From Tribonema minus (Eukaryota; Sar; Xanthophyceae; Tribonematales; Tribonemataceae), in the NCBI GenBank assembly GCA_017506865.1, contig JAFCMP010000001.1, positions 1,054,001 to 1,118,000 of the forward strand: a stretch of 64,000 nucleotides of DNA, given 5' to 3'. Made by a program: the position numbers and the translations under genes. Positions 143 to 61,356 of the stretch are shown piece by piece. The notes beneath the pieces are model-generated. The model worked only from the letters and a program-made list of their open reading frames with translations. It was not told where the DNA came from and did not search any database. Every line of letters starts with the position of its first letter. Positions within the stretch are counted from its first letter, which is position 1.

Positions 143-1206
143 CTCGCCGCGCCCCGCGCACGGCTCGCCGCCGCCGCCGCCCTCGCGCGGGTCGCCGCCG
201 TGCCACGAGTCCGTGTGCAGATAGCCCATCTCAGGGACGTCCATGAGGCAGATCTCGGTGCAGGGGAACGGGCCGCCGACGTGCCCCGCGGAGAAGTCGC
301 CCGGCTGCGGCGCGGTGCAAAAGTTCACATTGAAGTAAGGGATGGCAAAAGTCCACACTTGAAGTACATGCGTACAATGTGATAAAGAAGAAGAAAGATG
401 AGATGAGTAGGACGCACAGGGTAACGGGCCGCTGATGTAGGGTTAGGTAACCCTATTCCTAACCCTAACCCTAACCCGCGGGGAAGTCGTCCCGGCTGCG
501 GCGCGGCGCAAAAGTTCACACTTGAACTCCAAGTGCATGCATCATACAGAGTTCGAGTATGCACAGGGAAACAGCCCGTCGCCGTCTTCGGCAGAGAAGT
601 CACCGGGCGGCGGCGCGGCAGGAAGGACGGCAAGAGTTCACACTTTGAACTTAGAGTACATGCTTCAAGTACACTGCAAGTACACACAGGGGAATGGCCG
701 CCGACGTTCCCCGCGGGAAAGCCGCTCGGCTGCGGCGCGGTTGGATTACGACGGCGGAAGTTTACACTTGAAGAACATATACTGCATACACAACGCTTGA
801 GGAACGTGCGCGTGCAGGGCATGCGCGTGTGCTCGAACGTCAAGTGCACGGTGATCTACTGGGGCATCGAAACATTCGAAGCACATGCACGTGTACTTCA
901 TGTGCACGGTGCATCACTGACCATGTGCGGGGAGGGTGGAGGCTGACGCGTCTGAAGTCGTGGGCCGAGTTTTCAAACATGGGCGTCAGCTGTTTGAACT
1001 TCGAATGGCAGCGAAAGTGACAGCGCAATACGTACCCCTTTGCTGCATGCCGCGCACAGGCGCGCACGCACCGCATCAGCAGTGCTCAGCGGCAGCAGCA
1101 GCGCTCACCATAGTGGCGCCGGAGCGCGTCTCCGCCTGCCTATTTTCTTCGCCTGCCTATTTTCTTCGACATGTACCGCTCGATGCATGCCGCGTGCGGA
1201 CCACAC

Positions 1207-1262
<56 letters not shown>

Positions 1263-4200
1263 GCGCACACATCGACTACCCCTGATGTTGCATGCACAAC
1301 CGTCAGTACATACCGTGTGCAGGAGTGCTCCACGGCGGCAGCAACGCTCACCAAGGCGACGGTAGCGTGGACATACGCTTCCGTCTGACCCTAAAGTTGC
1401 ATGCATGCCCCTCAGTACGTATTACATACCGTACACAGCAATGCTCAGCAGCAGCGGCAGCAGCGCTCACCATGGTGACGGTCGCGCCGGCGCACGTCTC
1501 CGTCTGCCCTTCACACCTGCCACAAAACTCTTGATACATGCATACTGCATAAATACCAATACGTCAACATCGGCAGCAGCTCACCATGGTGATGGTCGCG
1601 TCGGCGCACATCTCCATCTGCCCCTAATACTTCCACAAAACCCTCGTTACATACGTACTGCATACACGACACGTCGAGTGTGTGTGTGTGTGTGTGCGTG
1701 AGTGTGTCAAGGCAGCAACGCTCACCATGGTAATGGTCGCGCCGGCGCACGTCTCCGTCTGCCCGTACCCCTCGATGAGGTCGCAGCCGAGCAGGATGCG
1801 CATGAAGGTGAGGACGTGCGGCGCGATGGGCGCGCTGCCCGTCACCACGAGCCGCAGGCGGTCCATGCCCAGCGCCGCGCGCAGCTTGGCAAAGATGAGG
1901 CGGTCCCAGAGGGCGTGCTTGTTGGTGCCTGCGGCGTCACGCGAGAGGGTGACGTGATGAGAAGTTGAAGTTTGCACTGAGTTGAGTAAACTTCAGCAAG
2001 TGAGGGCCGCGCGCAGCTTGGGGAAGATGAGGCGGTCTCACAGGGCGTGCTTGTTGGTGCCTGCGTGAGAGGGAGAGGGTGAAGCGATCAGAAGTTGAAG
2101 TTTGCAACTTCATGAGGCGAGCGCCGCGCGCAGCTGGGCGAAGATGAGGCGGTCCCAGAGGGCGTGCCTGTTGGTGCCTGCGGCGCCACGCAAGGGGGCG
2201 ACACCATTAGACGTCGAGGTCAGTGGACTTCGTTCAACAAAGCGAGCGCCGCGCGCCGCTCAGCAAACATGAGGCGGTCCCAGGGGGCGTGCTTGTTGGT
2301 GCCTGCGGCGCCACGCGAGAGGGTGACATGATGAGCACTCAAAGTGTACTAAGTTGACTTCAACAAGGCGAGCCGCGGGCGCAGCTTGGCGAGGGCGAGG
2401 CGGTCCCAGAGGGCGTGCTTGGTGGTGCCTGCGGGCGCGCAGCTCAGGGGTGAAACCGTAAGATGTGGAGGTGGTGTAGTGAGCAACATCAACGTGCCGA
2501 GCGCCGCGCGCAGCTTGGCGAAGATTGGGCGGTCCCGGCAAGCGCACGTGCTGGTACATGCCGCGTCAAACGAGGGTGAAACGATGAGCGCTTGAAGTAT
2601 GAGGACTCGGAGCATGCGCCTGCTGTACTTCAGCATGGCGTGTGGCGCGCTCCGCGTCGAGCAAAGACGAGGCAGTCCAAGAGGGCATGTACTACTTTGT
2701 GCTTTTGGGTGCCTGCTGTGGCGGGCATGCGGACAGCGCATCCGCACATGAAGTACGCATTCAGTGAACTCCAGCATGATCTGCCGCCTGCAGCGTTGAG
2801 CATGCGCGCGCGAAGAGGCGCGCCCTGAGGCCTGTCACGCTGTGCGTCGCTCTAGAAGCACTCCAGGCGGTGACGTCGTCGCTGGCGCAGTGTGTGATGC
2901 ACCCAATCCTACAGTAGTCCTAAACGGATCACGCACCATTGTGCAGGCCGCGGACCTTGGCCTCGCACGCGTGCACGAGCTGGCGCGCCCTGACGCCGCT
3001 GTCTCACGACCGCAAGCACGCTGACCCCCGATGCGTCGCTCTAGAACGAGATCAAGTACGCCAGGCGGCGCGCAGCGCACAATGCCGCTCACGGTAACCC
3101 TGATCCTGAGAGAAGTACGCACCGTTGTGCAGGCCGCGGACCTTGGCCTCGCACGCGCGCACGAACAGGCGCGCCTTGAGGCCGCCCGCGGCGAGCATGC
3201 CGTGCGTGATCTTGTCGTGGAGGCGGTTGAGGACGCGCGGCACGGCGGGCATCAGCACCGGCCGCAGCGCCGCCATGTCGGCCACGAGCTCCAGCGGGTT
3301 GTTGCGCCAGAAGCCCACGGGCGCGCCGCCGCAGAACACGGCGACCTGCGGAGGGTAAGCGTAAAGGGGGCAAACTTCAAATTGAAGTTGAAATTTACTT
3401 GAAGTTGAAGTTTAAAACACAAGTTGAAGTTTGTGTAATGGACTTGAACAGGGGTCGGCCACGAGCTCCAGCGGGCTGTTGCGCCAGAAGCCCACGGGCG
3501 CGCCGCGGCAGAACACGGCGACCTGCGAGGCGAGGGACGAGCGCGCAACGACTTCGACTTCAACTCGTGCACTGAACCTCAAGTGTGATTCCACCTGGAG
3601 TATGATGCTTCACCATAAAGTGTGATCCATCACCATTTGCACCCATTCATGAACATTGTGTGACAGCGAACATGTTGACCGGCCGCAGCGCCGCCATGTC
3701 GGCAATGAGCTCCAGCGGCAGGCATGTTCTGCACCAGTGGTGCCGTAGGTACGAGCGGAGCACTGTGCATGCGCTTGCCGCTTCAAGACGTGCGGCAACG
3801 GCAGGTGCGTCCTACTTCAATGGTGCAGTACAAGCGGAGTGCTTGCGCACGCAGGCTGCGCTTGCCGTTTGAAGTTGTACGGCAGCGGTAGGCACGGTGC
3901 ACTTCAATGAAGTACGCACCTGCGCTTGCCGCTCGAAAGTGTGCAGCAGCGGCAGGTATAATTAACTTCAATGGTGATGTACGCACCACTTGGCGCTAAG
4001 ATGTGCAGGTACGGGCTACTTCAACGTTGACATACAACAGAACATAGTGTATTACTTCAACGATGAAGCACAAGCGCACAAGCGGCGCAATGCCGCGCGC
4101 ACCTGCACTTGCCGCTCCAAGTCGTGCGGCAGCGGCAGGCGCGTCCTACTTCAATGGTGAAGTACACGCGGAGCACTTGCGCACGCGAGCCTGCGCTTGC

Positions 4201-5883
4201 CGCCTTGAAGTTCAGCGGCAGACACAGGTTCACTTCAATTGCGAAGAACGCACCTGCACTTGCCGCTCGAAGATGTGCGGCAGCGGCACGTACGGTTCAC
4301 TTCAATGGTGAAGTACGGTTCACTTCAATGGTGAAGTACGCACCTGCACTTGCCGCTCGAAGATGTGCGGCAGCGGCAGGTACGAGAAGTAGACCTCGTC
4401 CGGCGTGCAGTGCGCGAGGCCCATCGCGTAGCAGCCCGCGGCGTCCGACACCATGCTGCACGTCGCAGGCACGCACCGTTCGTCAGCGCCACAACATGAT
4501 GCGATGACCGTACGGAGCTGTTGATTCTCGCTGAGGGCGTGAAAAAGCCCACACGGTGGATGTCAAGCTCGATACCAGAGGATACATGCGCCTTCTGACA
4601 GAGTGCCGCAACGCGGATTGACAGTCGCTTCGATGCTTTTACTTGGAGAGCAAGAAAAGCATCCCGATCATTCCGATATGGTTGGAGGCACGGTGTAATC
4701 GTCAGTGCGCATGACTAGATTTCGTCTTGACAAACAGCATTTGAGGAAGGATTTCAATTTTCGAATCACCTGTGAAGAACGGGCTACGGTTAAAAGAAAC
4801 GCAGTGGTTGGCAGTGCGCAAGCATCACTGTCGCACGCAATGTGTTGACTGCCTCCGGCGTCAGCGACTCTGTGAGGTGCTTTCCGGTCCTGTTCTTCAT
4901 AGGCTTCATAGTTTACAGCACCAGCACCGCAGCGCTGCCTGACGCGAAATGTTCCACGGCTTGTGCATCACGGCCTGCGCATAAGTTTGCTGAAGAGCAT
5001 AGTGCAACGACCCACCTGACGCGCCGAACAAGCGCCCCCCTTCGTACTCATAATGTATGCGCAGCACCGCGACTCGCCAGTGCCTCATCAGAGCCACTCG
5101 CAAAAAGAAAAGACTCACTCGCTGCTGCGTGACTCGTCAATGACTCACTTTTCTACATAGAGTCACTCGCCAAATGATATGACTCACTTGACGTGCCGGA
5201 TGAGCGCCCCCTTGGGGTTCCCCGTCGTCCCGCTCGTGTAGCAGAACGTCGCTATGTCGTTCGCCGAGGGCGGCCGGTGCGGCCACGCCTCCAGGTGCGC
5301 GGCGCCAATTTCCTCGAGCTCGGACATGAGGTAGACCCTGAAGGAATGGTCAGCAGAGGACACAACGGACTTCAACTAGGGATGGGGTAGGGTTGGGCTA
5401 GGGTTAAAGTTGAGCCTCCAGGTGCTCGGCGCCTATTTCCTCGAGCTCGGACATGAGGTAGACTCTGAGGTGCGCAGCAACCGTCAACGGGGGGACACAA
5501 CGGCGTTCAATTGGGGTTGGGCTAGGGTTGAAGTTGGGTCCCCAGGTGACGCGGCGCCTACTGTATTGCTTAGAGCTCGGACATGAGGTAGACTCTGAGG
5601 TGCGCAGCAACCGTCAACGGGGGACACAACGGCATTCAACTAGGGTTGGGGCTAGGGTCGCAGTTGGGCCCCCAGGTGCGCGGCGCCTATTTGCTCGTGC
5701 TCCGACGTGAGATAGACCCTGAAGGGCGCAGAAACGGACGACCATGGGCATTGCGCCATTTGACGAGGGTTGGGGCTAGGGTTGAAGTTGCGCCTGCACG
5801 TGCGCGACGCCTGTTTCCCGGAGGGAGCACCACGCATGTCAGGCCGGCGACCTCCGCAGCGGCCCGACGGGGCCCAGCATGAC

Positions 5884-5918
<35 letters not shown>

Positions 5919-7982
5919 GCGTCCCCAGCGCTTCGCCCGCTGCCAAACACGCATACTTCGAAGTATGTACAGGCGTGGGACAGGGCAGCACCAGACCGAC
6001 AAGTCACGTCGATGGCGCGGCCGCCGCCCGCCGCGCACCTGAGGCCGGCGACCTCCGCCGCGCTGCGCGCCGCGGGCCCGACGGGGTCCATCGTCACCGC
6101 CGCGGCGAGCGTCGCGCACGCGCCGCCGCGCGCCGCCGCCGCGAGGCGCCGCAGCTCCGCCTCGCCGCCGCAGAGCACTGCCACGAGGCCTGTCTGCGCG
6201 ACCACGAACTCGACGGTCTCCGGCCCCAGCGTGTCGTACATGGGGACGGTGACGCCGCCGTGCGCGAAGGCGGCCTGCTCGCCGATGACCCACTCTGGAC
6301 GGTTGCGCGAGTAGAGGCCGAGGAGCTTCATGCCGTCGGCGTTGGGGGGGGTGAGGCGCTCCTGCTCGAGGCCCGCGGCGAGGCGGTCGACGCGCGCCAG
6401 CACCTCCCTGCGCAGTTTGTTTTTGTTTGTAGGCAAGAGATCGCGTTTGCTTAAATATGCTGATTGAATGTGCTTCAAGTACACGCGTGGTTCATGTACT
6501 CGCGTTGAAGCATGTCGATGAACACGGCGTGAGGCGCTCCTGCTCGAGGCCCGCCGCGAGGCGGTCGACGCGCGCCAGCACCTCCCTGCGCAGTGTTGTT
6601 GGGGTAAGTCAATGCCCACACATATGTTGAGTTGTGCTTCAGGTACATGCTCAGATGCATACTTTGAAGTCTGTCGATTACGTGCCATTCTGGACATACT
6701 TCGAAGACTGTTGATGAACACAGGGCAGGCGCTCCTGCTCGAGGCCCGCCGCGCCAGCGCCTCCCTGCGGATGGAGAAAGGGGTAGCACAAACCGCATAC
6801 AGGTGTAGATACAACACACAAGTATGCTGCCTGTGCTTGCCACACCTAAGGGACTATTTCGTGTGCTTATATGTACTCGAGGCCTGGTGAGAGGTGGTCG
6901 ACGCACATGACCGCCGAATTAGGCTTCGATGAATGCTTGCTCTCACACTTTGAAGCATATGAACAAACACAGCATCGGGCGCTCCTGCTCGAGGCCCGCC
7001 GCGAGGCGGTGGACGCGCGCCAGCACTCCTCTGCGGATGGAGCAAGGGGTATCACAAAACGCACAAAGGTGAAGGTAGAACATAAGCATGCTGCCTGTGC
7101 TTGCCACACAAAAAACTATTGTGTGTGGTTATTCTGATATTCAAACATGTACTCAAGGCCTGGTGAGAGGTGGTCGACGCAGCCGCCACCCCCCTGCGGA
7201 CGGCGGACGTGACATCATATGCCCCATGCCCCACATAAGTTGCGCTCAAACGAACGCAGCGTCACCGCCGCGGGTGTACGTATGGCAACGGCTGGCCCGT
7301 CCTCCGCGGCGCGCCGCACGCGCGCCAGCTTGAATGAAATCGAATCAAAAGATCGTGGAGCTCCAGGTGACAAGGGATGGTTAGCCGCAGGTGCCTTTCA
7401 CCAATGACCGTGGTCGCCGCTGCTGCAGCAGTTGGCCACGAGTCAAACAGTACCACCGTATCCACCAGTCAAAAAGACTTCTGTGTGCAAGCTTTTAGCG
7501 TTCGAGGCATGGGTGTTACAGTATTGGAATACCATGCACACGCACCTGCGGGTGGGGTATGTCCTTCCAACTGGAATACCCACCTACCTACGCACCAGTG
7601 CGGCTGGAATGTTGAGAATCATACTTGGTACGCGTGCCCGAGGCAATGTGTGCACATCATAGAATACCTGCACGCTGTTTCCGCGCGCGCACCTGTACGA
7701 CTGGAAAATGTACGGCGTCGGCTGCCCCGCGCTGTCCACCGCGCGGTGCCCAAGGCACGGCGCGTCCGGCGCCTGCGCAGCGCCGCGGCGGAACGTCTCG
7801 TAGCTCGTGTAGCAGCCGAAGAGCGCGAGCTGCGGGCCCGCGGCGGAGACGCCCGGCAGCGCGCAGCGCCGCGTCGCGCCCTTGCCCTCCGCCTCCGAGT
7901 TGGGCACGACGACGCTGTAGGGGATGCCCGTGCCGCTGCGGCGCGGCGGGCGTTCTAGGCAGTTGAGGTTGAGCTCGGACAT
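143..7982 (-). CDS. LACS: Long-chain acyl-CoA synthetase, 3' end off the left edge
   Basis: Activates long-chain fatty acids to acyl-CoA (ATP to AMP + PPi) for lipid synthesis or oxidation. Seven exons join in frame: 7982-7693, 6407-6039, 5337-5188, 4455-4344, 3345-3123, 1928-1726 and 304-143, about 503 codons; roughly 150-200 C-terminal residues lie beyond base 1. Every junction is GT-AG and the phases match. Visible family marks are SRNRPEW in exon 2, the AMP-binding loop YTSGTTGNPKG in exon 3, YLPLPHIFER in exon 4, PAVPRVLNRLHDKI in exon 5, GYGQTET in exon 6 and AGHVGGP plus DVPEMGY in exon 7. The start at 7982 is the ATG leading into the N-terminal YSVVVPNSE block. There is no obvious signal peptide. 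All introns are crowded with degenerate copies of the flanking exon edges, so naive gene finders will fail here. Family assignment is certain; chain-length preference and compartment cannot be read from the sequence. Confidence 0.93.
458..477. repeat. Interstitial telomere-like CCCTAA tract
   Basis: About three CCCTAA units inside the intron between LACS exons 6 and 7, beside the exon-edge copies. It is too short and internal to be a chromosome end. Confidence 0.8.
478..740 (-). repeat. Acceptor-edge copies of LACS exon 7
   Basis: Around 480-512, 590-625 and 690-740 the start of exon 7 (reverse complement PGDFSAG codons, preceded by the GCAG acceptor) recurs upstream of the real exon, each copy followed by the same AAAGTTCACACTTGAA-like intronic text. 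The copies are diverged and do not extend through the exon. Confidence 0.8.
1096..1626 (-). repeat. Donor-edge copies of LACS exon 6
   Basis: The end of exon 6 plus its GTGAGC donor (read on the plus strand from about 1721 to 1765) is repeated downstream in the intron near 1578-1612, 1463-1510, 1339-1380 and 1096-1132. Each copy keeps the GCTCACCAT..GG..CG core and is flanked by CAGCAG-type text. The farther copies are shorter and more altered. Confidence 0.85.
1204..1262. repeat. AGC/CAG trinucleotide microsatellite
   Basis: About 18 AGC units with one interruption, inside a LACS intron. It produces long poly-Ser/Ala/Cys reading frames that are artefacts of the repeat. Confidence 0.95.
1678..1700. 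repeat. TG dinucleotide microsatellite
   Basis: A (TG)n run just downstream of the exon 6 donor of the acyl-CoA synthetase gene. Confidence 0.9.
2007..2715 (-). repeat. Six-unit array of acceptor-edge copies of LACS exon 6
   Basis: The first ~60 bases of exon 6 (codons for GTNKHALWDRLIFAKLRAAL) with the preceding CGCAG acceptor recur at about 2007-2065, 2120-2190, 2245-2315, 2370-2440, 2498-2560 and 2637-2715, a period near 125 bases. Between units lies intronic text rich in TTGAAGTT. Units keep the GGCGGTCCCAGAGGGCGTGC core, but indels break the frame and none continues into the rest of the exon. Confidence 0.92.
2936..3000 (-). repeat. Donor-edge copy of LACS exon 5
   Basis: A second copy of the end of exon 5 (plus-strand text GTGCAGGCCGCGGACCTTGG and onward) lies about 180 bases into the following intron, ahead of degenerate sequence. 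Confidence 0.8.
3449..3720 (-). repeat. Acceptor-edge copies of LACS exon 5
   Basis: Two upstream partial copies of the 5' edge of exon 5: one at about 3449-3530 that keeps the acceptor and the VAVFC/PVGFWRN codons, and a shorter one at about 3670-3720 with the LELIADMAALRPV codons. The real exon starts at 3345. Confidence 0.85.
3777..4290 (-). repeat. Donor-edge array of LACS exon 4
   Basis: Short units of GCAGCGGCAGG / CTTGCCGCTCGAAG flanked by TACTTCAATGGTGAAGTA-type sequence occur near 3777, 3866, 3934, 4105, 4195 and 4255, then the real exon end at 4344. The intervening ACTTCAATGG/TGAAGT forms small inverted repeats. The exon's last 40 bases are in effect the terminal unit of a tandem array. 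Confidence 0.82.
5413..5720 (-). repeat. Acceptor-edge copies of LACS exon 3
   Basis: Three upstream copies (about 5413-5470, 5545-5600, 5668-5720) of the start of exon 3 (codons VYLMSELEEIGA). Each is followed by a TAGGGTTGAAGTTGGG-like spacer instead of the rest of the exon; the copy nearest the exon ends in an in-frame stop. Confidence 0.88.
5840..5882 (-). repeat. Donor-edge copy of LACS exon 2
   Basis: Plus-strand text GGCCGGCGACCTCCGC followed by GGCCCGACGGGG repeats the end of exon 2 about 200 bases into the intron, with the donor-side bases altered. Confidence 0.8.
5880..5920. repeat. CGC trinucleotide microsatellite
   Basis: About a dozen CGC units next to the exon 2 donor-edge copy, intronic. 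Confidence 0.9.
6531..7322 (-). repeat. Acceptor-edge copies of LACS exon 2 in intron 1
   Basis: The first ~60 bases of exon 2 (codons REVLARVDRLAAGLEQERL) with the GCAG acceptor recur at about 6531-6594, 6729-6772, 6977-7040 and, increasingly degraded, near 6881, 7161 and 7300. The copy closest to the exon is almost perfect, the next lacks part of the centre and the far ones keep only short blocks. Confidence 0.9.
7331..7388 (+). repeat. Dispersed ~58-base repeat, copy 1
   Basis: TGAATG..A..CGAATCAAAAG..AG..CT..AGGTGACAAGG..AGCCGCA is shared, with few mismatches, with 49621-49678 inside an intron of the PHTF gene. Both host genes are on the minus strand, so the two copies have the same orientation relative to transcription. 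Confidence 0.75.
7530..7650 (-). repeat. Donor-edge copies of LACS exon 1
   Basis: The text around the exon 1 donor (plus strand CGCGCACCTGTACGACTGGAA) is echoed twice downstream, near 7543-7585 (GCACCTGCGGG..AACTGGAATA) and 7590-7615 (ACGCACCAGTGCGGCTGGAA). Confidence 0.65.
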
Positions 7983-10255: not shown

Positions 10256-10260
10256 CCTAT

Positions 10261-10747: not shown

Positions 10748-13093
10748 ATGGCGCTGGACGACAAGGGCAGAATGATGCGAGGAAGAATAGAGTTTTTTGA
10801 GCGCAACATCCACAAGCTGTCGAAGCACCTCACCACCATGGTGGCGCAGCACAAAGGTGACAACATGAGTATCTTGACATGACTGTGGAAGGGATTGAAC
10901 TCCACTCTGTCAGGGCCAGTACACCTAAGGCAATGTCAGTCAGCATCTTGATGGTCTTTACCAAAGTAGAAGCGGCGGCTCACAGTGCCAAATGCAAAGC
11001 TCTGGGTCGTTCATTTGCTCTGCATATCTGCGCGATCGTTGTCAAACTGGACCTGTTACATTCACTTCTGTCGCAGTGCGCTGATAGAAAAGAGGTGGCA
11101 GGTCCATCAAACCTCGCAGTCCTGAAAGCAATCGAGGCAATAGTAGAGTACCGCGAGCACCTGCACCAGCACAGCACAGCAGCTTTCCGCAGATTGAAAA
11201 GACATGCCTGCTGCATTGTGCTGCTGCCACACTGCGACGAGCCCTCATTCACTTCAGGACCCCCCCCACACACAATACACTCCAATCCGCCTTGCTCTCA
11301 CAAACACCTTGCCCAACCCACGGCGAAATCGTGCTGTGCCAGCCGGCGTGGACGTCGGCATGAAGTTCAGCGAGAGGGTAAAGGACGTGGCGGCGCAGGA
11401 GCCCTTTGCGGACCTGCAGGACAGGCTCGTGGCGCTGAGCGAGGTCACGGAGCGCATCGCGCTGGAGCGCAAGGGCGCGCTGTGCGACCGCGCGGAGCAG
11501 CAGGTGCGCGGCGCGCGCACGCTCAGTTTCAGTGCATCCGGTTTCGGTTTCAGTGCATCCGTGGCTTTGCTTCGGTGCCTGAGCTGTACACGCCTGCGAC
11601 AAACTCACGCACCTGGCAACGGGTGACCTGCTCAGCTCCCCGCTCTGCCGGCGGTGGAAGCAGACGCAGGCCAGCTCGTCGCCCTAAGCCTAGCAGTGCT
11701 GTACATACCTACCCCAGACCCCTGGGCGACGCGCCCTCGTCCACCTTCTCGCGCTGCGCTGTGGTTCGCCTCGCATGCTTCTGCCTCTGACATGTTGGCT
11801 GATGGCACGGCGTGCGTGTAGCGTGTCTCGACATCGATACGCAAAATTGGAAGATCTTACTGTGTAATTGTGACCCGTGGTGCCGATGAAACTGCCAGAG
11901 TCGTCACCCCGCAGGAATATGAAGCTGTAACGCACAGCTATGCTGGATGCTGCTTATGCTAGCAGTTGAACACTGTGTTGCGCGGATGCCATGCGCTGAG
12001 CGCGTCAGGTGCTGGCGAAGCTGACGGAGGTGCAGACGCGCGTCATTGCCCCGACCAAGGCGCTGCTGAAGGACAGGGACGAGTGCATACAGTCGCTGGT
12101 GAAGGTGAGCTTTGACGCTATTGTCAGAAACTTCAACGCAGCTGGGCAGTCATGTGTTGCAGTTACAGCGCTACAGCCCCATGACAGCGCCACCCTGCCC
12201 CAATGCGGCGCCAATTTCGGCTCTGATGCATTTAGGGGTTTGTGGGTCGCGCTCGCTGTGGCAGCAATGCTGGCAGCACTGCTCAGTCAGACCTCGGCGA
12301 TGCGAGCCCCTCTTGATACGAGGGCCAGATTTGGGTTACGCTCAAAGTTAGGGTTAGCATCAGGGGGTAGGATGGCGTGTGTGCGTGGCACTGCATGGGC
12401 GAACACCAACTCCCGACCCGCTGACACAGTGTGACAGGTGATGTGCCACATGGGCGAGAACCGTCACGTAGGGCATCGGCTGTGTTCTGCAGGAGTGCGC
12501 TCGCTGACAGCTGCGACAGCGCACACTGCAGCCACAAGTAAGTATGGTCTCACACAATCAAACATTCGCAGGCGACGACACGTGCCCACCGCGGCGCGGG
12601 GGTCTTGACTCACGCGTTTGTTTGCCTCAGAGAACCAAAGTACGTTTTGAAGTTCAACTCAAAAAGCGCCAATCTTCGCTCCGGCGACGCTCCTGCAGCT
12701 CGCACCAGGCCGAAGCGAAGCACAATCTCATGGTGCAGTGTGTTGACCTGCAGCAAGTAGGTGTTAACACAACGAAAATGCACGCTTCTAGGTATGTAGG
12801 CTGCAAGTTTAAATATATACTTGAAGTATGCAGTTGAACTAAATGCATACTTGAAGTATGCAGTGAACTTAGACAGCATTTGTGCACTCCGGTGACGCTC
12901 CCGCTGCTCTCGCCAGGCCGAAACAGAGCACGACCTCAAGGTGCAGCAGGGGAAGGCGACAAAGGACACGCCGCTGGCCATCCTGGAGCTTCGGCACTGC
13001 CTGCGGAACACGGAGAAGGTGGTGGACAACAACATGGAGCTGTTCGAGGCGCAGCGCGTGGAGGACGTCAAGGTGGGTGGCAGCAATAAAACG

Positions 13094-13124
<31 letters not shown>

Positions 13125-14277
13125 GAGGGGAAAGACAGGAAGGATGATGTTGGTTTTGGGTTTTGACGTGCAGAGACAGCCACGAGTCATGCGGCAGCTC
13201 ACAGCTGGACGATGCGTGCGCGCATACGTGGGCAACGGTAGCAAGTAACAAGTGGTACTCAGGGTTTGACGCTGAGTGTGCATACGTGGTCCATGGTGGC
13301 AAGGAGAACATTGCAGTGCGAAACATGGAGCAGGTGACGGGCAACTCCATGGAGCTGTTTGAGGCGCAGCGCATGGAGAGGATGTCAAGGCGTGTGACAG
13401 TCACAGCGCAATGCACGCGCATACACGGGGCGTTAGTGCGAGGACAATTTGACACTGGCTTTGACACTGGCAAGCGATGTGGTGCCTGTTTTCTTCATAG
13501 GTGAACCACAAGTGCACCTCAGTGGCAGTTACACTGTAACGGTCCCATGTGTGTGTGAAGGCTTTGACCACAGTGAGAGGGTGGGAGCGGAGCTTATTCA
13601 CAAAGCAGACTGAGTTGTGTTGCTCTGCCGCTGCGTCGCACGGCGCCGCATGAGCCGTATGCAAGTGCGGGTTGCGCCCTGTCTCGCGTCGTCCGGAGAG
13701 TGCTGGATCTGTGCAATGCGCGTTGTCGGATATGATGCGGCAGTTTTGAACGTTGGCAGACATGTTTGACTACCGCGATGGAGGTTCACCGCTGCTGCAT
13801 GATGTACCGAGTGGTCGTAGGCGCGCGGCAGGGCCAGCGGCAGCCAAAATTACCCGCTCGTACAGTCCTTCAAGTTGAGATCAAAGGTGTCGCATAGGCC
13901 TGGATGACTCTGCTTCAAACAGCGTTGATGAGTGTTGTGCCGTTTGAGCGTGTGGCGCGTGGCTACACCCTTCCCTTTTACCTACTTTCACAGTCGCAAG
14001 TCAGTGTGCATGTGCTGTCACTGCTGCCGCCTCTGCACACGTCCCTCACGTCTCCCTCTGCAAAATCTTCTGACTCCCACCCTCTGCTCGCGCGCGCGCC
14101 TCCGCCCTTCAGGAGATACTGCAGGAGTTTGTGCGCTGCGAGATGTACTACCACTGCAGGGCGCTGGAGATGCTGGCGCCGGCGCTGCAGCACCTGAGCG
14201 GTGTGCACGGCGACGTCGCCAGCGACAACATTCGGCACGAGATGGCGAGCCTCAACACAAGACTCAACTACTCATGA
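10748..14277 (+). CDS. CIBAR: FAM92/CIBAR-type BAR domain protein
   Basis: BAR-domain membrane-curvature protein; in animals this family acts at the ciliary base and transition zone. Five exons join in frame: 10748-10856, 11343-11503, 12009-12104, 12917-13072 and 14113-14277 (228 aa, TGA stop). The order of motifs follows the family: RIEFFERNIHKL near the N-terminus, then GMKFSERVKDVA, DLQDRLVALSEV, VLAKLTEVQTRVIAPTK, QAETEHDLK-like segment, LRNTEKVVDNNMELFEAQR, and the C-terminal EFVRCEMYYHCRALEML. The protein is shorter than the ~290 aa animal proteins, mainly in the linker between exons 3 and 4, so a small exon could have been missed. All junctions are GT-AG. The gene implies a flagellated life stage. 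The predicted protein is almost entirely helical. Confidence 0.85.
12690..12745 (+). repeat. Acceptor-edge copy of CIBAR exon 4
   Basis: CGCACCAGGCCGAAGCGAAGCAC and onward repeats the acceptor and first ~35 bases of exon 4 (12917) about 220 bases upstream, preceded by the same GACGCTCC text. Confidence 0.85.
13092..13121. repeat. GA dinucleotide microsatellite
   Basis: (GA)n run a few bases downstream of the CIBAR exon 4 donor. Confidence 0.95.
13300..13390 (+). repeat. Donor-edge copy of CIBAR exon 4
   Basis: The last ~80 bases of exon 4 (GAGCTGTTCGAGGCGCAGCG region and GTCAAGG donor) recur about 300 bases into the intron with several changes and a broken frame. Confidence 0.85.
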
Positions 14278-27702: not shown

Positions 27703-27769
27703 GGCTAGGGTTGGCAAGCCTAAACCGTACTGCTTGGGGGCGGTCCGCAGCAGCGCTCAAGGGGGGGTC

Positions 27770-28110
27770 CTGCGGGGGCGTGGCTCGGGGACGTCGCCGC
27801 GTTGGCGCTGTTCTAGGGCTGCTCAGGGTTTGCGACGTGGCCCCCTCACCCTAGACGCTTCTGCCTGGGGGAGGGAGGGTCTGGAGCAGCGCTCAGCCAA
27901 GGGTCGCAGGGGGGGGGGGCGCGCGCGCGCGGGGCCTGGCTCGGGGGCGTCTCTGCATCGGCGCCGCCCTAGGGTTTATTTTTGGGCTAGCAATGTAATC
28001 CTGGGCAAGCTGCAGCAGTGCTCAACGCACGCGCGAGCACTCATGAGGCGCACGAGCAGGGGCATGGCTCGGGGCCGCCGCCGCCTTGGTGCTGTTCTAG
28101 GGTTATGGGT
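27770..28110 (+). repeat. Stop-codon-edge copies downstream of the gene
   Basis: The last ~45 coding bases with the TAG stop and following GGCTAGGGTT recur at about 27775-27820, 27935-27975 and 28062-28105 (GGCTCGGGGACGTCGCC...CTGTTCTAGGG). Units are separated by ~130-160 bases containing GCAGCAGYGCTCA. This is the boundary duplication seen at splice sites, but at a stop codon. Confidence 0.92.
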
Positions 28111-45887: not shown

Positions 45888-45889
45888 AT

Positions 45890-46680: not shown

Positions 46681-46685
46681 GTAGC

Positions 46686-48714: not shown

Positions 48715-51700
48715 TCACAGCTTGAAGAGCTTGACGATCTTCAACTTGAAGCCGAGCGTCTCGCTCATGATGGCGGACAGCGCGGACAGGAGCACGATGC
48801 GTATGACGTTGACCAGCATGGGGTTCATGCGTATGCCGCTGATCTTGTTGGGGCTGTCGAGCTCCTTGAGGAGCTTGGTCGCCAGCGACAGGACCTGGTT
48901 GGAGACCTGCCAGGGGGGTTGAGGGGGGGTGGGGGGTCAAAGAGTGGCGAGGCCGGTAGTCGTGAGGCTTTCTGGTGCCTCAATCTTTGCCAACATGTGT
49001 TGTGGCTGTGCACACAGTACAATCAGTCTGCTGGCAGAGGCACCCAACCCATGTGGCACTCACATCTCAGATGTGCATGCCGGTGCTGCTCTGGCAGCTC
49101 GGTCGCTGGCGGCGGCGGCAGCGCATGCGCTGGGAACCCGCAGATGCTGAAGTGCCACCGCAATCACACCTCAGTGCTCAAACGCCTCTTCAATGTGGCG
49201 CCAGGTGATGTGCTGAAGCGCAATGCTAGCGTAACTCGACGACAGCCACGAGGTGACAACTGCCACCAGGCTGCCGCGACGGGCCGCCCTGCATCGTGTT
49301 GCACGGCAGCTTGCAGCAGACAGCTACGGCGCTGGTCAAGCTACAAGTACGAATGCATCAACTCTCAAGTATGGGCATACAACAATGTGAACATGTACCT
49401 GGTAGTTGATGGCTTTTTGTTTGTCGGGGCCTTCGGGCCGCGCGCTGTTGTGCAGGATGCGCAGCTGGACGTTGATCTGCTCTGTTAGCAGGACGCTGGT
49501 GTCGCAATATCTGTGCGCGAGGGCGAGACAGTGCAGTGCAACACAACAAGCGTCATGAGAGTCAAAGCCAGGTGGCTCGTGCACAGTGGCGTGAACTCAC
49601 TGTGAAAGTGTATGACCTGGTGAATGGAAACGAATCAAAAGTTTGTAAAGCTCTAGGTGACAAGGTGTGATGAGCCGCAAGAACCGTCGATCGCTTTGTG
49701 CGTACCAGACGCACCCGTGTGCGCAGCATTACTCAATTTGCTGATGAGCATGTGACTAAGAGGCAGCGACACACAGACAGAATCAGAACGTCGGCGCCGC
49801 TGCTTCCCCGGAACCTTCCTCGGCCCTGCATCATCTCAGATATATGTGTGAACAATGGAACAACGGGTGTATGCCATGCAGGCCATTGTCCAGCCCTTGA
49901 CACAAAAAATTGCCAGCCGAAAGCCCCTCGATGGGCAGCGTCAGGCGCACAGAATCGTGCCTTAGTAGCGCACACACATGAACAAAAAGTACACGTTGCG
50001 CAAGGTGCTGCGACACTCGCCTGTCGTTGGTGCGGCTGCCGAGGCTCGCAAAGCGCAGCACAAAGTAGCCCAGCGGGAAGCTCCACGCGAGCAGCTCCCA
50101 GTGCAGCATCTTGCCCATGACCTTCGCCTCCGGCTTGGCCAGCGCCTCGAACGCAATGACGCTCAGCAGACCCACCAGCAGGCAGAACGCCGCTGAGACG
50201 ACTGCATGAAGGGGGGGGGGGGGGGTAATCGGGGGGGGAGGTAGGGGGGGTACAAGCATGTGACAATTCGCAACTCCATACTTGAAGGAGTAGATGCACC
50301 GAATATCCACATCAACCCATACAACTGGTTGTGCTCACAGCGCGATATGTATAAATGCATGCCTCTGTTACCAGCAGGCAGAACGCCGCCGAGACGACTA
50401 TGTGTGGGGGGGCGAACGGAGAGGTATGGATGTGGAGTCGGGTGGGGTGGGGTTGCGGGGGGGGGGGGGGGGGGGGGGAGGGGCAAATGTGCTTGCACGC
50501 TGGGTAGGCAACTGCGTAATTCACAACACACCGTACCGTGTCACCGACATGTCACCCATTGGTGTACGCAGATCTGAGAGTTTGGCCTGCAGAATTCGAA
50601 GCCTACATGCCATTTGTTTGCCACCGCGGGTCGAGAAAGCATGAAATCTCACGCAAGCCCTGGCACACCCAAACAAGAGCGGCGCTCAATGCAGAACTGG
50701 GGCATGGCTGCGAGCTTTCATTCGGGAGCCTGTAGACATTGGAATCTGCAACGAAATAGTAAGGGGCCCGGATCGCGCGTCTCTTTGCATGCGTTCTCTG
50801 GCGCAGATCGTGTGCTGCGCTGGCGCCGCGTTGGGCAATGCGAGAATGTCACAACGGCCCCAGCAGTGCACGCGATCACAGTGGGACTGCAGTAAAACAT
50901 TGGAAACTCACTTGCGTCCGCCTCGCGCTGCTCGCGCCGCCGCCTCAGCCACGAGCGCCCCGCGCGCAGCGCCAGCCATGCGCGTATCGTGGCGGGGGAC
51001 TTGAGGGGGAAGTGCGGCAGGCCGTACTTGCGCGCGCGCCGGCTCGACGTCAGCGCCATGTAGTACTTGGCGTACTTGTATCTGATGAGCCACGCAAAAA
51101 ACGGTGGTGGGGTCTTTACTTCAGCAGATTCAGAGGGGGGTTCAGTAGGGGACAGTTTACAAAAGCACAAAAGGGAGGAACTGGACTTAGCACTTTGAGG
51201 GTGAATTGGGCGTGCTACACATGCACAACTGCTAGCTTGACGGCTCGACGCCAGAGCTATGTAGTACTTGGCGTACTTGTATCTGCAGCGCCATGCGAGA
51301 GACAGTGAAACGGTCAGTCGGGATTATAGCGTTCAGTTAACGGGGGGGGGGGGGGGAGTGGACAGCAGCAAGGAAGTCAGAAGGGGCTACAGGCAGCGGT
51401 TGGGGGTGGGGGTTGGCGTGCTGCTGTGCACAGCGCGACGTCAGCCCCATGATGTGCTTGGCGTACTTGTATCTGACGCGCCGCGCGTGAAGCATTGGGG
51501 GTCTTTACTTCAGCGGGGGATTCAGTAGGGGGCAGCTTACGGAAGTACGAAAGGGAGGCACTGGACTTCAGCACTTTGAGGGTGAAGTGGGCGTGCTACA
51601 CACGCACAACCGCCATGTTGACGACTCCACGCCATGTAGTACTTGGCGTACTTTCATCTGCAGCAACATGTTTACAAATTGCAGACGAGGTAGTTCAATG

Positions 51701-54700
51701 ATGAAGTTAGGCGGCAAGGCCACGCTGCCGTCAGCGCTGACTCGATGAAAGCGCCGTGCGGAACATGAAAAACTTGTGTGTGCAGGGGCGCGTGGGCATA
51801 GACAGGTTAAGGGTGTTAGAGGGGGGCAGGCTATGCACAGAGGCGCAAGTTGAACTCATAGTTGCCCTACCCTAACTCTGCACCTACGACGGAGCGCGTC
51901 ATGGCGCACACGAGGGCATAGAGTGTGGTGCGTGCTGTACATGCTGTATACCTCCATGGTTTGGACTTTTGAAGTAAAATGCATTGAGGAGTGCACCTGT
52001 CCACCTCGCTATTCTCGACCAGGTACATAGTGCACCTCCGGCCGTACACCGCGCCGTTCGCCTGCTTTCACTGCACTACTTCAGCTCCAACTTCTGACCC
52101 CCATTTCGCGTGCGCTGTGAGCTCAACTTCAAGACGGATCTTCTGCGGTACACACCAGCTCCGCCACCGCGGCCTCGAGGAAGGTGTGCCAGAACTGCAT
52201 GCGCCCACTAGCACAAGCGTTCAAGTGAATCTATCTACTGCCCTACCCTCATGTTGGCCCCTTGCCGCGGCGCGCGCTGTGACACACATGAGGGGGGTGT
52301 AGGGATGTCAGGGTACCCACAGCCAGCGCACCCCCTGTCGTCAGTTCCGTCGCCGTGCCTCTCAACTTCAACTTGCTACTTCAACACTAAGGCTCGCGCG
52401 CCGAGCCCTACTTCAACCACCACGACGCACCTCCTGCGGTACACCAGCTCCGTCGCCGCGAGCTCCAGGAAGATGGGCCACGAGATGTACGCGACGGCCA
52501 GCAGGCTCACCCCAGCGCTCAGCGCGCAGCTCAGGTCGCACGTTGAAACTTCGAACGCGCCGCCGTCGCCGCCGCCGCCGCTGCCGCTGCCGCCTGTAGC
52601 GGCGTCGTCACTACATGTTGAAGTTGAGGTTAAGGTTGAAGCGGCGGCGGCGCCGCGCGCGTGCGACACGGCGGCCGCGCCGACGAAGTGGTACGCGGTC
52701 GGCAGCAGCGCGGTCGCGGCGGTGCACAGCGCCGCCTTGCTCACGCTGAGCGCGGAGGACAGGGTGGCCAGGTTGGCGCGCGCTGCGGGGACGGGGGGGA
52801 CGGGGGTGGGTGGGGGAAGGGGGGGGGGATGGGGCATGTCGGTGAGCACTGCCCTATTGTCGCCGAAGGGGCTTGCCACGAGGACTGGCGCGTTGCGCCG
52901 TGTGCAGTTCATCGCACATCCGGCAGCAGAATGCAGTGCAGCGCACGGAGCGCCGATGCGTTCCATCTGCACAGAAGCGATGCAACGCAGTGAACGCAGC
53001 GCGACGCGCCGAGAGTGAAGCAAGCACGAGTGGAACAAGTGGAACAACAGTGCGAGCGCCGCGACGTGACGAGGCGGCCGTGCGGCCTGGTCGTCGCATC
53101 GCACATGGCGCTGCAATCGTCGAGGCGACGACACTCGGTACGGCGAGAACCAGGACTGGACCATGAGTTCAATGAGCATCGGAGCAGCGCCCTAAGCCCA
53201 ACCCCTACCCGGACCCTTGCTGAGAATGACATGGCACATGGCACACTGCAAGCGTCAAACAGACGGGTGCTATGAGGACGGTCAGGGCCGAGGCTCAAGT
53301 GCACTCCAAACACAACCACTCAGTCGCCTGCGCGGCACACGACGCACCGCGGACAGTGTCACTGACGTCGGCAGTCGGTACGGCAAGGCTCGAGAGTCGA
53401 ATTTAAGATTACAAATAGGGGCTTACAGTCGGTACGGCAAGGCTCAGGACACATGTCGATACTGTGCTCAATGGCAACGTGCACGCATATGAGATCGATG
53501 CGCGCATGAGTGGCGCACCAAGGATGGCATGTCGCACTTGGGGTTTGCCCAAATCCTACTCACGCCCCAGGACGATGTTAGCGTGGTCACAGCATAAGAG
53601 CGGTGGGGGCTGGCGGTACCGCTCTTATATCGTAGCCGTCGCTGTACCCACAAACATGTGCAGAAGCTCAACGAGAGACGCACCGAGGATGTCGTGGCGC
53701 ACTTGCGACAGCGGCAGGCGTTGAGCCAGCTGAACACCTATATGATCCTCCAGAGACGAGCAGGGATTCAACAAGTGACGCACCAAGGATGGCGTGGCGT
53801 ACTTGCGACAGCGGCAGGCGTTGAGCCAGCTGAACACCTATATGATCCTCCAGAGACAGAAGTTCAACAAGTGACGCACCGAGGATGGCGTGGCGCACTT
53901 GCGACAGCGGCAGGCGCGCCTTTTGCCTCGTGCCGTCCGGCGCCCACAGCGTCACCTTCACGGGCGCGGACGCGAGCTGCTCCAGCTTGTCGTCCTCGTC
54001 GTCCTGAGAGCGCAGGGGGCGGAGATGGGCGTCAACTTTAGGGTCAGATGGAGAGCGACTGGGTCTTCGCATCCCCGAGCACTGCGGCAAGGCGCTGTCG
54101 TCACCACGTGCTGAGCTTGAAGCTGAGGCTGCAGCAGGCAGGAGCCGCCTCAGCTTGCCGCCTGTCGTCGTCCTGAGAGAGCAGGGGGTTAGCGCTACGA
54201 TCCGAAGAGAAGAGACTGTGCGGCCGGTCCCGCACGCATGTATGCATGCATGCATGTATGGCTGTCTGAGCAGCCTGGCCGGCCGCGCGCCGCGAACCGC
54301 CCTTGGCCTGACGGTGAGGAGGGACGAAGCGCAGAGTCGCCGGTCATCATCGACCCTCGTGTGCAGCTGTTTGAGCGCTGCCAAGTGGCCCCTACATTCA
54401 ACGCACGCGACGGACGCGACCCCCCCCCCGCCTGACAAGTTTTGTCGTCCTGGGAGTTCACAGGGTTGAAGTTAGGGTTGAAGGCGGGCAGACTCTGCGC
54501 CCCTTGCACGGCTGCTTGAGCGCCGCCTAGGAGAATGGTGAGGTTCGCTCACCTCGTCCTCATCGTCCACTTCCGCGTCAATTGAACTATGGCTGGTCGT
54601 GCTATTCGCTCTTCTGTACGCCCTCTTCGCGCCCCCCCCCGTCAGCAGCAGCGCCAGCCCCTTCGCCACCCCCTCCTTCTTCCCCCCGCCCGCCTCCATT

Positions 54701-57304: not shown

Positions 57305-60300
57305 ATGTCCTCGAAACGCAACAGCAGTAGTGCTGGCAAGAAGAATGGGGCGTCCTCCGCAGGCGCAGCAGCGTCTGCTGTGCCTGCTGTGCAGATCACA
57401 CCCGACCTGGTCAAACGCACCACTGGCGAGTACGATCTGGAGATGGTGCAGTGGCTTGACCTCAGCAACAGGGGCATTAGAAAGATAGAGTGCCTGAGCA
57501 ACTGCATCAGCATGATCGACCTATGCCTGTCCGGTAACAGAATACGGCACGTAGAGGGGCTGGAAGCGCTAATTTGCCTGCAGAGGCTGGACCTCTCCAG
57601 CAACAAGATCTCGCGCATAGGCAAGTGCAAGAAGTTTTGGATGCTGCGAATCGTATGCTGTGCCAACGGTGACATAAAAATCTAGAGCAATGAGTGTTTT
57701 GCCGTTAAAGACATAACCTTAGCAACAAGTACGTCTGCCATCATGAAAGCTGGCGGCATGTACAACAGACCAAAGGCGCTGCCTCCGTACAGATGGTGGC
57801 CCGAGTCATTCAAGCTGGAGTGTTGGAGTCACAACATGGGCAAACAAAGCTGGTGAGCCAGCAAAAGCCAGAGCATTAAACTTACAGCGTGGGTAGGCAA
57901 AAGCTGGCAGTTGTTGTGAGCAGCAGCACCGGTTGGAAACAGTAAGGCGCGCATGGATGGTGGTTGCCGTTGGCTGCTCAGCCACAGTCGATGGCTGTGT
58001 CGTCTGCTGATTGTGAGGATCAGACGCAGAACCGATGTCCGCATTACTCAGCACGTCGGCTTCGGGTCATGCAATACGTCCAGCATCATGAAGAGACGAT
58101 CTGCGACGAGGGATGCGTGCTGTACACGATGAGACGGTGAGCGTGGCGATGACGAGAGAGGAGTGCGGCGAAGACACTTGCTGCGTTGCCGCCGCGCGTC
58201 GTGTCAGCTGGGAGTCCGTCCAAAACCCCAAAGCTTTTGGGCGCAGCCACTTCAGCAACTGTCAAAAAATTGAGTCCGTGCTTTCAATGACACCAATGCT
58301 GCCCCATCTTCCCGTCTCTCGTGCCTCGCAGCGGGCCTGGAGACGCTGCAGGCGCTGCAGCACCTCGACCTCAGGGGGAACCAGATCACGAACGTCGACG
58401 ACGTGCGCAGCCTGTCACAGGTCAGATGCGGGTCCTCATCTCACATGTCTGCTGCATGCTGATAACCGCGCGCACGTGAGCACGGCAGAGGGAGGCGCAG
58501 CATCGTTGCCTACTTGTCAGGCAGTTAGTTGCATGGAATGATGCGTCGCGCAGGTGTCTGCGCTTGCACTCTGAAGCTGCCCAAAGCCAGTGAGATGGGT
58601 CATGCTTTTCCGAAACTGTGCATCGTCCGCAAGAGTCAGTACAATCGGGTGGCTAGCTAAGCCGTGCACGAATTGGAGGCCGCAGAGGCTGCAGTTGGTC
58701 TCGTTGCATTGTGACCAAAGGCATGTAAGGAATGCATCTCAGCGGCGACCCTGCCGTTGAATCTGCAACGGAGTTGTTGCTGTTGGCGCGGCGGTCTGCG
58801 GCCGCTGCGCAAGGGCTTGCTGAAGAGCCCAACTAGGGCTGGACAGCGGAGGCGGTGAAGCTGCATTTGCCGCGCAACGCAACCCGACAAGCTACACAAC
58901 TTCAAGACAACACCACTTGGGCCGGTGGAACTTGGTCGTGTACACAAGCAGGCTGCGCTGAAAGCGCCTGAACATCGCGCCCTTACGACCATGAGCGCAC
59001 GCGCATCTGCTACGCTTTGCCTCGTTCGCGCGCGCAGCTCAGCAACTTGAAGCATTTCTACCTCAAGGACTATTCGGGCGACAACGCCAACCCAGGTGAG
59101 CTGTCAGCACATGCAGCAGTGCTCAGCTCTCACACGCAGCAACGCTCAGCATGCGCATGCAGTAGTGCTCATCACGTGCACATGCAGCACTCTGCAGGCC
59201 TCGCATAACCTGTTGTGCAGCAGTGCTCAACATACCATGACATGCAGCAGTGCTCAGCGTCGGTAATGCTGCAGCGCGCACCTCAACGTGCACCTCAGAC
59301 GTGCAAGTGAAAGCGGTAAGCAGACACGTGCAAGCGGACGTGTGCTGTGGCTGCGCGTCACCATGCCATGCGCATCGTTGCACTTTACTTCCGACCCCAA
59401 GTGTGCACCGTTAGCCCTGACCCTAGTGCCATGCCCGCCCCCGCTGCCGATGCATCGCGTGCAGCTTGCAACCACCCTGCATATCACATTGTCGTGACGA
59501 AGTGCCTGAAGCACCTGGAGATCCTGGATGGCGAGAGCTTGAACTTGCGACAGGTGTGTGTGCGGCATAAACGGAATGTTTGCTGAACGGCTGCTCTGCC
59601 TTATGCTTGACTTCTGGAAAAGGGTACACCTGCGGAAAATAATCTTCCCCTGAGGAGTAGAGTGGCCAGCATGAAGTAGCTGAAAAGCAAAGCGCAATTG
59701 CCGAAATGACATCTGCAGGGGCAATTGCCGAAATGACAACTGCAGGGGCAGCTATGCAGTGAATTGACAGCACTCTAAAGCGTACCGAGGGGCGATGGAA
59801 CAAGGGCTACCTATCTCATGTCTGCCACGAGTTTTGCAGCTGGACTGCTGTGGGGCTGCATCCCCGTTAGGGCCTTTGCTGATATCCAGCTGGCATGCAT
59901 ATACACTTGCTCAAAAGGGCCATGCCTGCAAGCTCGCTACATGCATACATCGATAAACACAGCATTCAGGCTGAGGTAGAGCCATGAAAACATTGTGATA
60001 GCCAGTAGCTCCCGCGCTCAGGGCAGAGACCACACCTATTCGTCAGCCGCTGACTGCTCGCCGAAGCTGCTGAGCCTTTTTTCCCTCTTTGACTTTACGC
60101 CATCATGCATCATCGCTCAACCAACCCCCCACGTCCCCTCGCTACGCGCCGTGCCGCGCGACGTGCAGTGCATGGCGGACGTCATACTGGACCGCGTGCA
60201 GGCGGATCCCGAGGCGGCCAAGCCGCTGCCGCACCAGCGCTGGTGCGCCGCCGCCGACTGGGCGCTGCCGTCTGTCGAGGCAACCGTTGACGACGCCCTT

Positions 60301-61356
60301 CAAGATAGCATCGGTGGTTTGCAGGTACAACCGATCCTTCCTCTGCCACCGCCCACTTTGTTGTTGCACTGCCAGCAAAGCTGCCCTGTGCACGTAAGGC
60401 TAATAACCGTTGGAAATCTGGGCTATGCAGGCAGGCACAAAGCTACCAGTGCATAGCAGCAGAGGAAGCAGGGGACGCTGGCCGGTGCGGAAGTAGACAA
60501 GTGATCATTTATCAGACCAAACACAATCCCGTCGTGTGGGGACACAAACTTCCTCAGACAGAACCTGCCAGAACTTGCAAATAAGCTTCCAAGAGCAACT
60601 TGGTTTGAACCAGTGCTTCCAAGAGCAACCTGCAGAAGAATCCTGAGCTCTTCCTGCACTACCAGTAATACCCCATATTCCTATAAGTGTCAAAAGCAGT
60701 CTGGCACACGAAAATGACTTGAGAGAGCAACTCATAACTCAGCTGGAGCGCTGCTGCCGACTGGGCACTGCTGCCTGCAGAGGCCAGATTACGCTCTTCT
60801 CAGCGGCATCGGCAGCCTCCAGGCGCTCCAGTTGCTGCACCTGCCCACTACTTGCTGCGGCACGGGGGGTTGGTGCATGAGCTACGGATCTGCCTGTTTA
60901 AATCATTCTTGAAGTGCAAGACAACCACTGATACATTGTGACTCATTCGATGGCTCCTACTCTTAGGTGCGTTGCTTTTCCACAGAGCACTGCCTCTAGT
61001 TGTGGATGCTGACCAGGTGACTACACATACAACTTACCAAGCCGATGTGCGCAGTGCCCAGCACTATTGATAGCTCATGCTTGGCAACCTGCGACCCAGG
61101 CCAAGCAAACACAAGTAGCGAGGTGCAATTGGGGACAAGGACTTAAGAACCAATGCTAAGCGTGTCTGCCACCCTGTATCCTCCTGTCCTGTTGAACTCA
61201 GCCAGTCTCAATGGCACAGCGTGTTGAGCAGCAGCGATCACGTGTCTGTGCGCGCTGCAGGAGGCGCTCAAGTCCTGCGCAGAGGCAAGCCGAGAAGCGG
61301 ACCGCCTGCTGCGGCAGATGGGGGACCCCGCTGGCGAGGGCCCTATGAATGGATAG
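57305..61356 (+). CDS. LRRC61: LRRC61-like leucine-rich-repeat protein
   Basis: Exons 57305-57620, 58332-58420, 59038-59095, 59465-59553, 60169-60324 and 61261-61356 join in frame (267 aa, TAG), close to the ~259 aa of animal LRRC61. Order: Ser/Ala-rich start, ITPDLVKRTTGEYDLEMVQW, LRRs LDLSNRGIRKIECLSNC, IDLCLSGNRIRHVEGLEAL, LQRLDLSSNKISRI, LQHLDLRGNQITNV, the LRR cap LKHFYL..NP..NHPAY, CLKHLEILDGESL, and a helical C-terminus KSCAEASREADRLLRQM. The family is typical of ciliated cells; the LRR face binds a partner protein. Intron 1 needs a GC donor (ATAG|GCAAGT) to keep the LRR frame; reading through gives a stop soon after. Other junctions are GT-AG. Confidence 0.87.
59105..59262. repeat. 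Array of GCAGCAGTGCTCA words
   Basis: At least five spaced copies of a near-palindromic word (GCAGYARYGCTCA) separated by CACATGCA/ACGTGCA text in LRRC61 intron 3. Confidence 0.85.
60740..60820 (+). repeat. Donor-edge copy of LRRC61 exon 5
   Basis: GCTGCTGCCGACTGGGCACTGCTGCCTG...GGCATCGGCAGCCTCCAGG mirrors the last ~80 bases of exon 5 (GCCGCCGACTGGGCGCTGCCGTCTG...GCATCGGTGGTTTGCAGG) about 450 bases downstream, with indels. Confidence 0.8.

Follow-up and report, generated by a model that had tools for sequence, protein, structure and literature searches.

According to the accessible parts of the papers concerned, tandem genomic duplication is one of seven mechanisms proposed for the gain of introns (PMC3443670); in the potato RdRp gene a tandem duplication crossing an intron-exon boundary led to intron gain (PMC4974935); and a homologue at 80% identity exists for about 2% of exonic nucleotides in human, for 0.08% in fly and for 0.06% in worm (PMC9013439). 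Here we describe a stretch of the genome of Tribonema minus (Xanthophyceae) in which exon edges, together with adjoining non-coding sequence, recur as copies inside the neighbouring introns of many genes. The DNA analysed is a 64-kb window (G000:C1:1054001-1118000, hereafter the window) joined to the next 200 kb (C1:1118001-1318000), 264 kb in all, and every result given below refers to this one stretch of a single contig (C1, 2,451,431 b) from an assembly of 158 Mb in 554 contigs.

A copy of a flanking exon edge is present in 22 of the 39 introns of three genes curated by protein-to-genome alignment, against a null rate of 0.64% per test (2820 cross-intron tests). The copying of exon edges at gene boundaries, which the original prediction had claimed from a first inspection of the window, is thus real and far above chance. 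The introns concerned are 5 of the 6 in the long chain acyl-CoA synthetase gene (LACS), 4 of the 7 in MAP65 and 13 of the 26 in an importin gene. The importin gene lies beyond the window, at 65.2-89.3 kb of the joined stretch, and its guide was the transcript-derived protein P0002, which is near-identical to the genome, with about six residues different and one exon skipped. LACS, inside the window, was aligned with P0121, itself a T. minus gene model; this long chain acyl-CoA synthetase and JKP88DRAFT_260879 (P0241) are T. minus proteins that map to C1. For MAP65 the guide was a relative of 48% identity, giving a noisy alignment in which core exons were picked by hand and some edges are uncertain. 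All other exons are predictions of a self-trained hidden Markov model, whose training was begun from canonical splice-site values and yielded a GTGAGT-like donor and a CAG acceptor.

On the wider set of 150 introns from 30 genes, from which introns shorter than 250 b and 14 doubtful genes were excluded, exon-edge copies are found in 65. Whole exons used as queries gave 58 copies; 44 of these extend up to the boundary or stop no more than 3 b short of it, and the inner ends lie 22-131 b into the exon. The check put forward with the original prediction, a comparison of boundaries with exon interiors, bears it out: after the removal of low-complexity windows, a match in the neighbouring intron was found for 58 of 315 exon edges of 40 b, compared with 6 of 119 windows of that length from exon interiors (Fisher p = 2e-4), and none of up to 1500 random cross-gene pairings reached the 40-b match threshold. 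By BLAST, 806 of 4886 exonic bases (16.5%) in importin and LACS have a non-exonic twin of at least 80% identity within 1.5 kb, as do 3465 of 32210 bases (10.8%) of the predicted exons, the 14 doubtful genes again excluded. An assembly artefact, which would have undone the claim, is unlikely because the 68 scored copies are 76-98% identical to their exon and never 100%.

The repeats are local and head to tail. Compared with itself, the window yields 86 repeat pairs, 82 of them direct with a separation below 1 kb; the 264 kb yield 347, with 233 direct pairs within 1.5 kb against 3 inverted ones, and the regular spacing and shared inner ends are likewise those of tandem duplication. Distances between repeated 14-mers rise steeply at 100 b and are sparse past about 650 b. 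Over the 98 clusters in the 264 kb the smallest period has a median of 148.5 b (middle half 113.5-189 b), and the array period is mostly 110-190 b, the unit being an exon edge plus the adjoining intron. Exon and non-coding sequence are mixed in 77 of these clusters, 14 being intron-only, 4 intergenic and 3 exon-only, after 29 of 302 exons had been relabelled as copies and predicted proteins shorter than 60 aa excluded; for the window alone such a mixture characterises 25 of 26 local-repeat clusters. Outside the window lies the youngest event, a tandem duplication of a 391-b unit whose copies differ by one mismatch; its junction is blunt and has no microhomology. An Rfam search of the window gave no match.

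In LACS intron 5 the exon head has six copies, spaced 117-134 b apart, and every one of them stops 53-63 b into the exon sequence. Homology of the intron parts was detected at p 0.01 for 24 of the 35 pairs of neighbouring units, and it was detected for 15 of the 21 nearest copies. For the exon parts of homologous pairs, divergence is 0.069 per site (6.9%) between exon and copy and 0.142 (14.2%) between copy and copy, the twofold difference expected if the exon is held and only the copies drift; the corresponding intron parts differ by 0.175 and 0.190 per site, with many gaps. Copying of the exon and splice site alone, for example from RNA, was dropped as an explanation, since the copies share inner ends and have mostly homologous intron parts.

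The importin copies are spliced out, because P0002 has a single version of every segment, against as many as four in the genome (three extra for some exon starts); its spliced alignment has 27 exons, each in single copy. The LACS relatives P0122 (65% identical) and P0123 (63%) are without the repeats, as judged by eye from the printed sequences. Removal of the copies by splicing is shown for one gene through a transcript protein and for one through protein relatives. The copies decay as non-coding DNA. In importin and LACS, 19 of 20 gaps in the copies are not multiples of three, and the splice dinucleotides are retained in 13 of 21 cases for GT and 18 of 23 for AG. Differences from the exon number 60/770, 69/777 and 104/766 at the three codon positions (7.8, 8.9 and 13.6%); the excess at third positions, although significant (p 3e-4), is modest, and fits drift of the copy together with synonymous change in the exon. 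Mean identity to the exon falls with order outward, from 0.925 (26 copies) to 0.886 (14) and 0.873 (9). At 78184-78333 of the joined stretch lies a 150-nt, in-frame importin exon that is skipped in P0002 and retained in the relative P0003, the former being a probable exon-skipping isoform.

The best explanation, which we consider probable, is abundant and iterated tandem microduplication straddling exon boundaries, with the copies decaying inside introns. Many short-range tandem duplications, with units mostly of about 100-220 b, would arise in non-coding DNA, and a unit that straddled an exon end would leave behind in the intron an additional exon edge with its splice site. Such a copy would be tolerated, since splicing would still use the outermost site. 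Further rounds would insert new units, generally in the position closest to the exon, and the copies would then decay neutrally through substitutions and frame-breaking indels. With the exon side held by selection, exon-edge copies would remain recognisable for longer than intron-only duplications, and the pattern would for that reason look more boundary-specific than it is. The register of the copies, their shared inner ends, the 24 of 35 homologous intron parts, the decay and, for one gene, the transcript all favour the earlier proposal of repeated local tandem duplication in which only the terminal copy is kept as exon. We infer that the duplications arose as functionless accidents of mutation and, as their molecular route, that staggered breaks with fill-in and end joining may be involved; such a route fits the blunt junction of the 391-b event, a single case.

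Several observations weigh against this explanation. The third-position excess is also compatible with weak constraint on the copies; 11 of the 35 unit pairs have no intron homology at p 0.01, some of them next to exon parts that are 97-98% identical; intron parts differ 2.5 times as much as exon parts, where a factor of about 1.6-2 is expected, as though the exon part were too fresh; neutral co-duplication is rejected for 14 of the 21 nearest copies, on an assumed gap rate that may be low for introns; and identity falls just past six splice-site bases. The placement of the duplications, considered below, is a further point. Fresh exon parts would arise if these were old tandem arrays whose exon-derived parts were refreshed by recurrent short gene conversion from the exon, the intron parts drifting. 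Exon parts of 97-98% identity do adjoin intron parts whose homology is not clear (importin intron 5, head of LACS intron 4), the fall in identity after the splice site is sharp, and exon and intron divergence are weakly correlated (Spearman 0.44, p 0.13, n = 13). In alignable arrays, however, copies diverge from one another to a similar extent in their exon parts (14.2%) and in their intron parts (19.0%); gene conversion was therefore demoted as the main cause of the fresh exon parts, and we regard it as improbable. Neither a functional role for the copies nor a mobile element is likely. Alternative exons, whether mutually exclusive or cassette, would accord with the splice sites that many copies keep, with the open frame in some, with a database protein that codes through some of them (P0001, discussed below) and with the third-position excess. 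The copies are, however, partial edges rather than complete, coding-conserved exons: nearly all their gaps break the frame, first and second positions differ by 8-9%, and they are absent from the importin transcript protein and, by eye, from the two LACS relatives. We give this reading very little credence, and even less to the idea that the repeats belong to introners or to some other family of mobile elements. Among stramenopiles, Aureococcus is known to have introners (PMC7789003, accessible part), and ACTTCAA/TTGAAGT motifs are enriched in the introns of our stretch. The repeated sequence is nevertheless the host gene's own exon edge, different in each gene, and a dispersed match (at least 60 bits, 264 kb) occurs in 16 of 205 introns against a local match in 70, so that no element shared among the introns of many genes was found.

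Are exon boundaries themselves the target? Among 68 introns with local duplication, 58 have it at a boundary and 10 in the interior only, a ratio inflated by the scoring of introns with both kinds of array as boundary only. With exon and exon-copy sequence masked, the count is 20 boundary against 18 interior introns (20/38), a proportion in line with the 0.46 that simple geometry predicts (p 0.42); a smaller masked count gave 8 against 6. Simulations of uniform placement, which assume ancestral intron lengths, ages and gap rates and rely on exons that are mostly predictions, gave boundary fractions of 0.34-0.50 unmasked and 0.29-0.46 masked for uniform ages, and of 0.41-0.72 unmasked (72% at the oldest ages) and 0.22-0.41 masked for clustered ages. 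The observed 58/68 thus compares with 34-55% in most simulations, and the masked 20/38 with 22-46%. Detectability was considered as the sole cause of the boundary excess, and the results diverge: the masked counts suggest no excess, the simulated detection bias is only 1.2-1.3 under uniform ages, and clustered ages leave an excess of about 3-5-fold in odds when the age is chosen to fit the observed ratio of masked to unmasked detection. Boundaries are over-represented, partly through detectability since the exon itself does not decay, and a bias towards them may remain. Breaks or template switches set by a nucleosome-sized unit or by the step in GC content between exon and intron (0.71 and 0.59) could direct duplication to boundaries; the unit length is near nucleosome size, and such targeting is compatible with iterated microduplication except as to placement. 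Given the masked counts and the assumed inputs, we consider it a doubtful addition. Equally speculative is the picture that would follow from it, of a lineage whose introns grow from their splice sites by roughly nucleosome-sized duplication aimed at exon edges, the discarded copies being stacked behind. The degrees of confidence attached to the preferred and rival readings are not mutually exclusive.

The individual features are collected in Table 1. Among the genes named in the original prediction, LACS and MAP65 stand on curated models, and the PHTF-like gene (Pfam PHTF1-2_N match), the 23796 gene (no Pfam match) and the FAM92/CIBAR-like gene (FAM92 Pfam match under the curated cut-off) on predicted exons only; LRRC61 is weak, with a single 43-b pair of 81% in the window search that is missing from the 264-kb search. 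The kinds of boundary listed in that prediction are upheld for acceptors, donors and a stop codon, and for the start codon the sole candidate noted is at 7961-8227, a 73% match. The 23796 gene has three clusters in all on predicted exons, and its stop region has an additional degenerate copy, seen by eye, near 27935. The repeats at this stop codon show that copying is not confined to splice sites; since the coding end and stop codon are themselves repeated, splicing would not be required for duplication, if that gene model is correct. Within or beside the 23796 gene, at 25501-26396 of the window, there is also a 257-b tandem repeat of 3.5 copies with about 93% matches. An interstitial (AGGGTT)n tract of about eight units occupies 37679-37725 of the window, immediately upstream of the MAP65 coding region.

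Table 1. Exon-edge copies and dispersed repeats, in window positions unless marked as joined stretch
Feature	Position	Strand	Content
LACS intron 1	6348..7029	-	exon 6039-6407 start repeated: 6526-6585 (97%), 6727-6753 (partial), 6978-7029 (96%)
LACS intron 2	5287..5818	-	exon 5188-5337 start repeated: 5414-5463, 5542-5593, 5668-5718; full tandem array, ~124-b period
LACS intron 4, donor side	3770..4384	-	exon 4344-4455 end repeated: 4254-4294 (98%), 4103-4139, 3920-3958, 3856-3896, 3770-3809
LACS intron 4, acceptor side	3257..3718	-	exon 3123-3345 start repeated: 3454-3522 (97%), partly 3687-3718
LACS intron 5, donor side	2800..3185	-	exon 3123-3345 end repeated: 2939-2999 (92%), 2800-2832
LACS intron 5, acceptor side	1866..2689	-	exon 1726-1928 start, six copies from 2003-2060 to 2646-2689, spacing 117-134 b
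LACS intron 6, donor side	1110..1767	-	exon 1726-1928 end repeated: 1585-1626, 1471-1518, weakly 1110-1140
LACS intron 6, acceptor side	261..741	-	exon 141-304 start repeated: 687-729 (86%)
MAP65 intron 1	36487..36933	-	exon 36297-36534 start repeated: 36686-36733 (90%)
MAP65 intron 2	35192..35496	-	exon 35024-35244 start repeated: 35346-35398 (96%), full 154-b tandem unit
MAP65 intron 7	30357..30906	-	exon 30264-30436 start repeated: 30503-30575 (92%), 30674-30738, 30820-30874
PHTF-like gene	50174..54188	-	five predicted exon/intron clusters: 50174-50412, 51040-51670, 52130-52480, 53661-53916, 53974-54188
23796 gene, arrays	24194..26428	+	at predicted exons: 24194-24601, 25484-26428
23796 gene, coding end and stop	27647..28108	+	TAG 27700-27702; repeats 27762-27820 (92%), 28056-28108
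FAM92/CIBAR-like gene	13002..13400	+	one 84-b pair, 81%, between two predicted exons and their edges
Dispersed repeats	7334-7524, 45251-45405; joined stretch 115654-115831, 181504-181662, 256591-256773, 262751-262897		among the 12 strongest of 109 non-local pairs

Dispersed sequence of other kinds is also present. Across the 264 kb, the introns contain AACTTCAA/TTGAAGTT and the telomere-like TAGGGTTA/TAACCCTA about 25-50-fold above the expectation from base composition, and the cores of these motifs are rare in exons. Repeats of about 125-195 b, in both orientations and some of them 100% identical, are scattered through introns and intergenic DNA; they form at least two groups, of a size like that of MITEs (miniature inverted-repeat transposable elements) or SINEs (short interspersed nuclear elements). 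An open frame at 258155-259914 of the joined stretch resembles a reverse transcriptase by its motif, and presumably belongs to a retroelement.

If the duplication reading is true, T. minus would be a natural laboratory for the lengthening of introns, and also for a spliceosome that passes over near-perfect decoys lying 100-200 b from the real site. The arrays have a practical consequence as well, since gene-prediction software can mistake copies for extra exons. The database protein P0001, from this contig, carries some stranded exon copies as coding, unlike the transcript protein P0002, so that false internal repeats may be present in other predicted proteins of T. minus.

How does this stretch compare with what has been described? 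The original prediction held that introns were being built in this way and that no such system was known, and of these statements the second is contradicted and the first is not supported. No new intron was seen: the copies sit inside introns whose own splice sites lie elsewhere, and in the curated genes none of these introns takes its donor and acceptor from two copies, each copy lying on the side of its own edge and bearing that edge's kind of splice site. The class of mechanism is known from the tandem duplication model (PMC3443670) and the boundary-crossing potato case (PMC4974935), as the accessible parts of both papers make clear. Within the literature covered, which was limited and makes this weak evidence, we found neither a description of such arrays in Tribonema nor one of boundary duplications at this scale. 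Published cases of tandem duplication as an intron source, so far as the accessible texts go, concern single genes or cross-species tallies; importin alone has 13 such introns.

The comparisons that follow refer to the accessible parts of the papers cited. Introners (PMC9860276, PMC7789003) likewise place repeated sequence in the introns of algae and protists, but are dispersed families common to several genes, whereas in T. minus each intron has repeats of its own. The short direct repeats described close to splice sites (PMC11782384) also stand at intron-exon borders; they are 4-30 b long, lie at or near the border and are read as insertion scars, in contrast to copies of 22-131 b deep in the intron. 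With tandem and mutually exclusive exons (PMC9013439) the T. minus arrays share homologues of exons in neighbouring introns, but the homologues described there, some with expression evidence, differ from the partial, decaying exon edges found here, and the T. minus proportion of 10.8-16.5% compares with values, differently measured, of about 2% for human, 0.08% for fly and 0.06% for worm. The tandem genomic duplication model (PMC3443670) has in common with our stretch a local tandem duplication that supplies extra copies of splice sites; there an AGGT-containing exonic segment is duplicated to yield a new intron, an outcome not seen in the T. minus arrays. In potato RdRp (PMC4974935), one event in one gene gave a new intron with a recruited donor site, whereas here many genes carry arrays of up to six copies, on acceptor and donor sides alike, by which existing introns are lengthened. 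The kind of mutation is thus a known one, and its scale and repetition look new.

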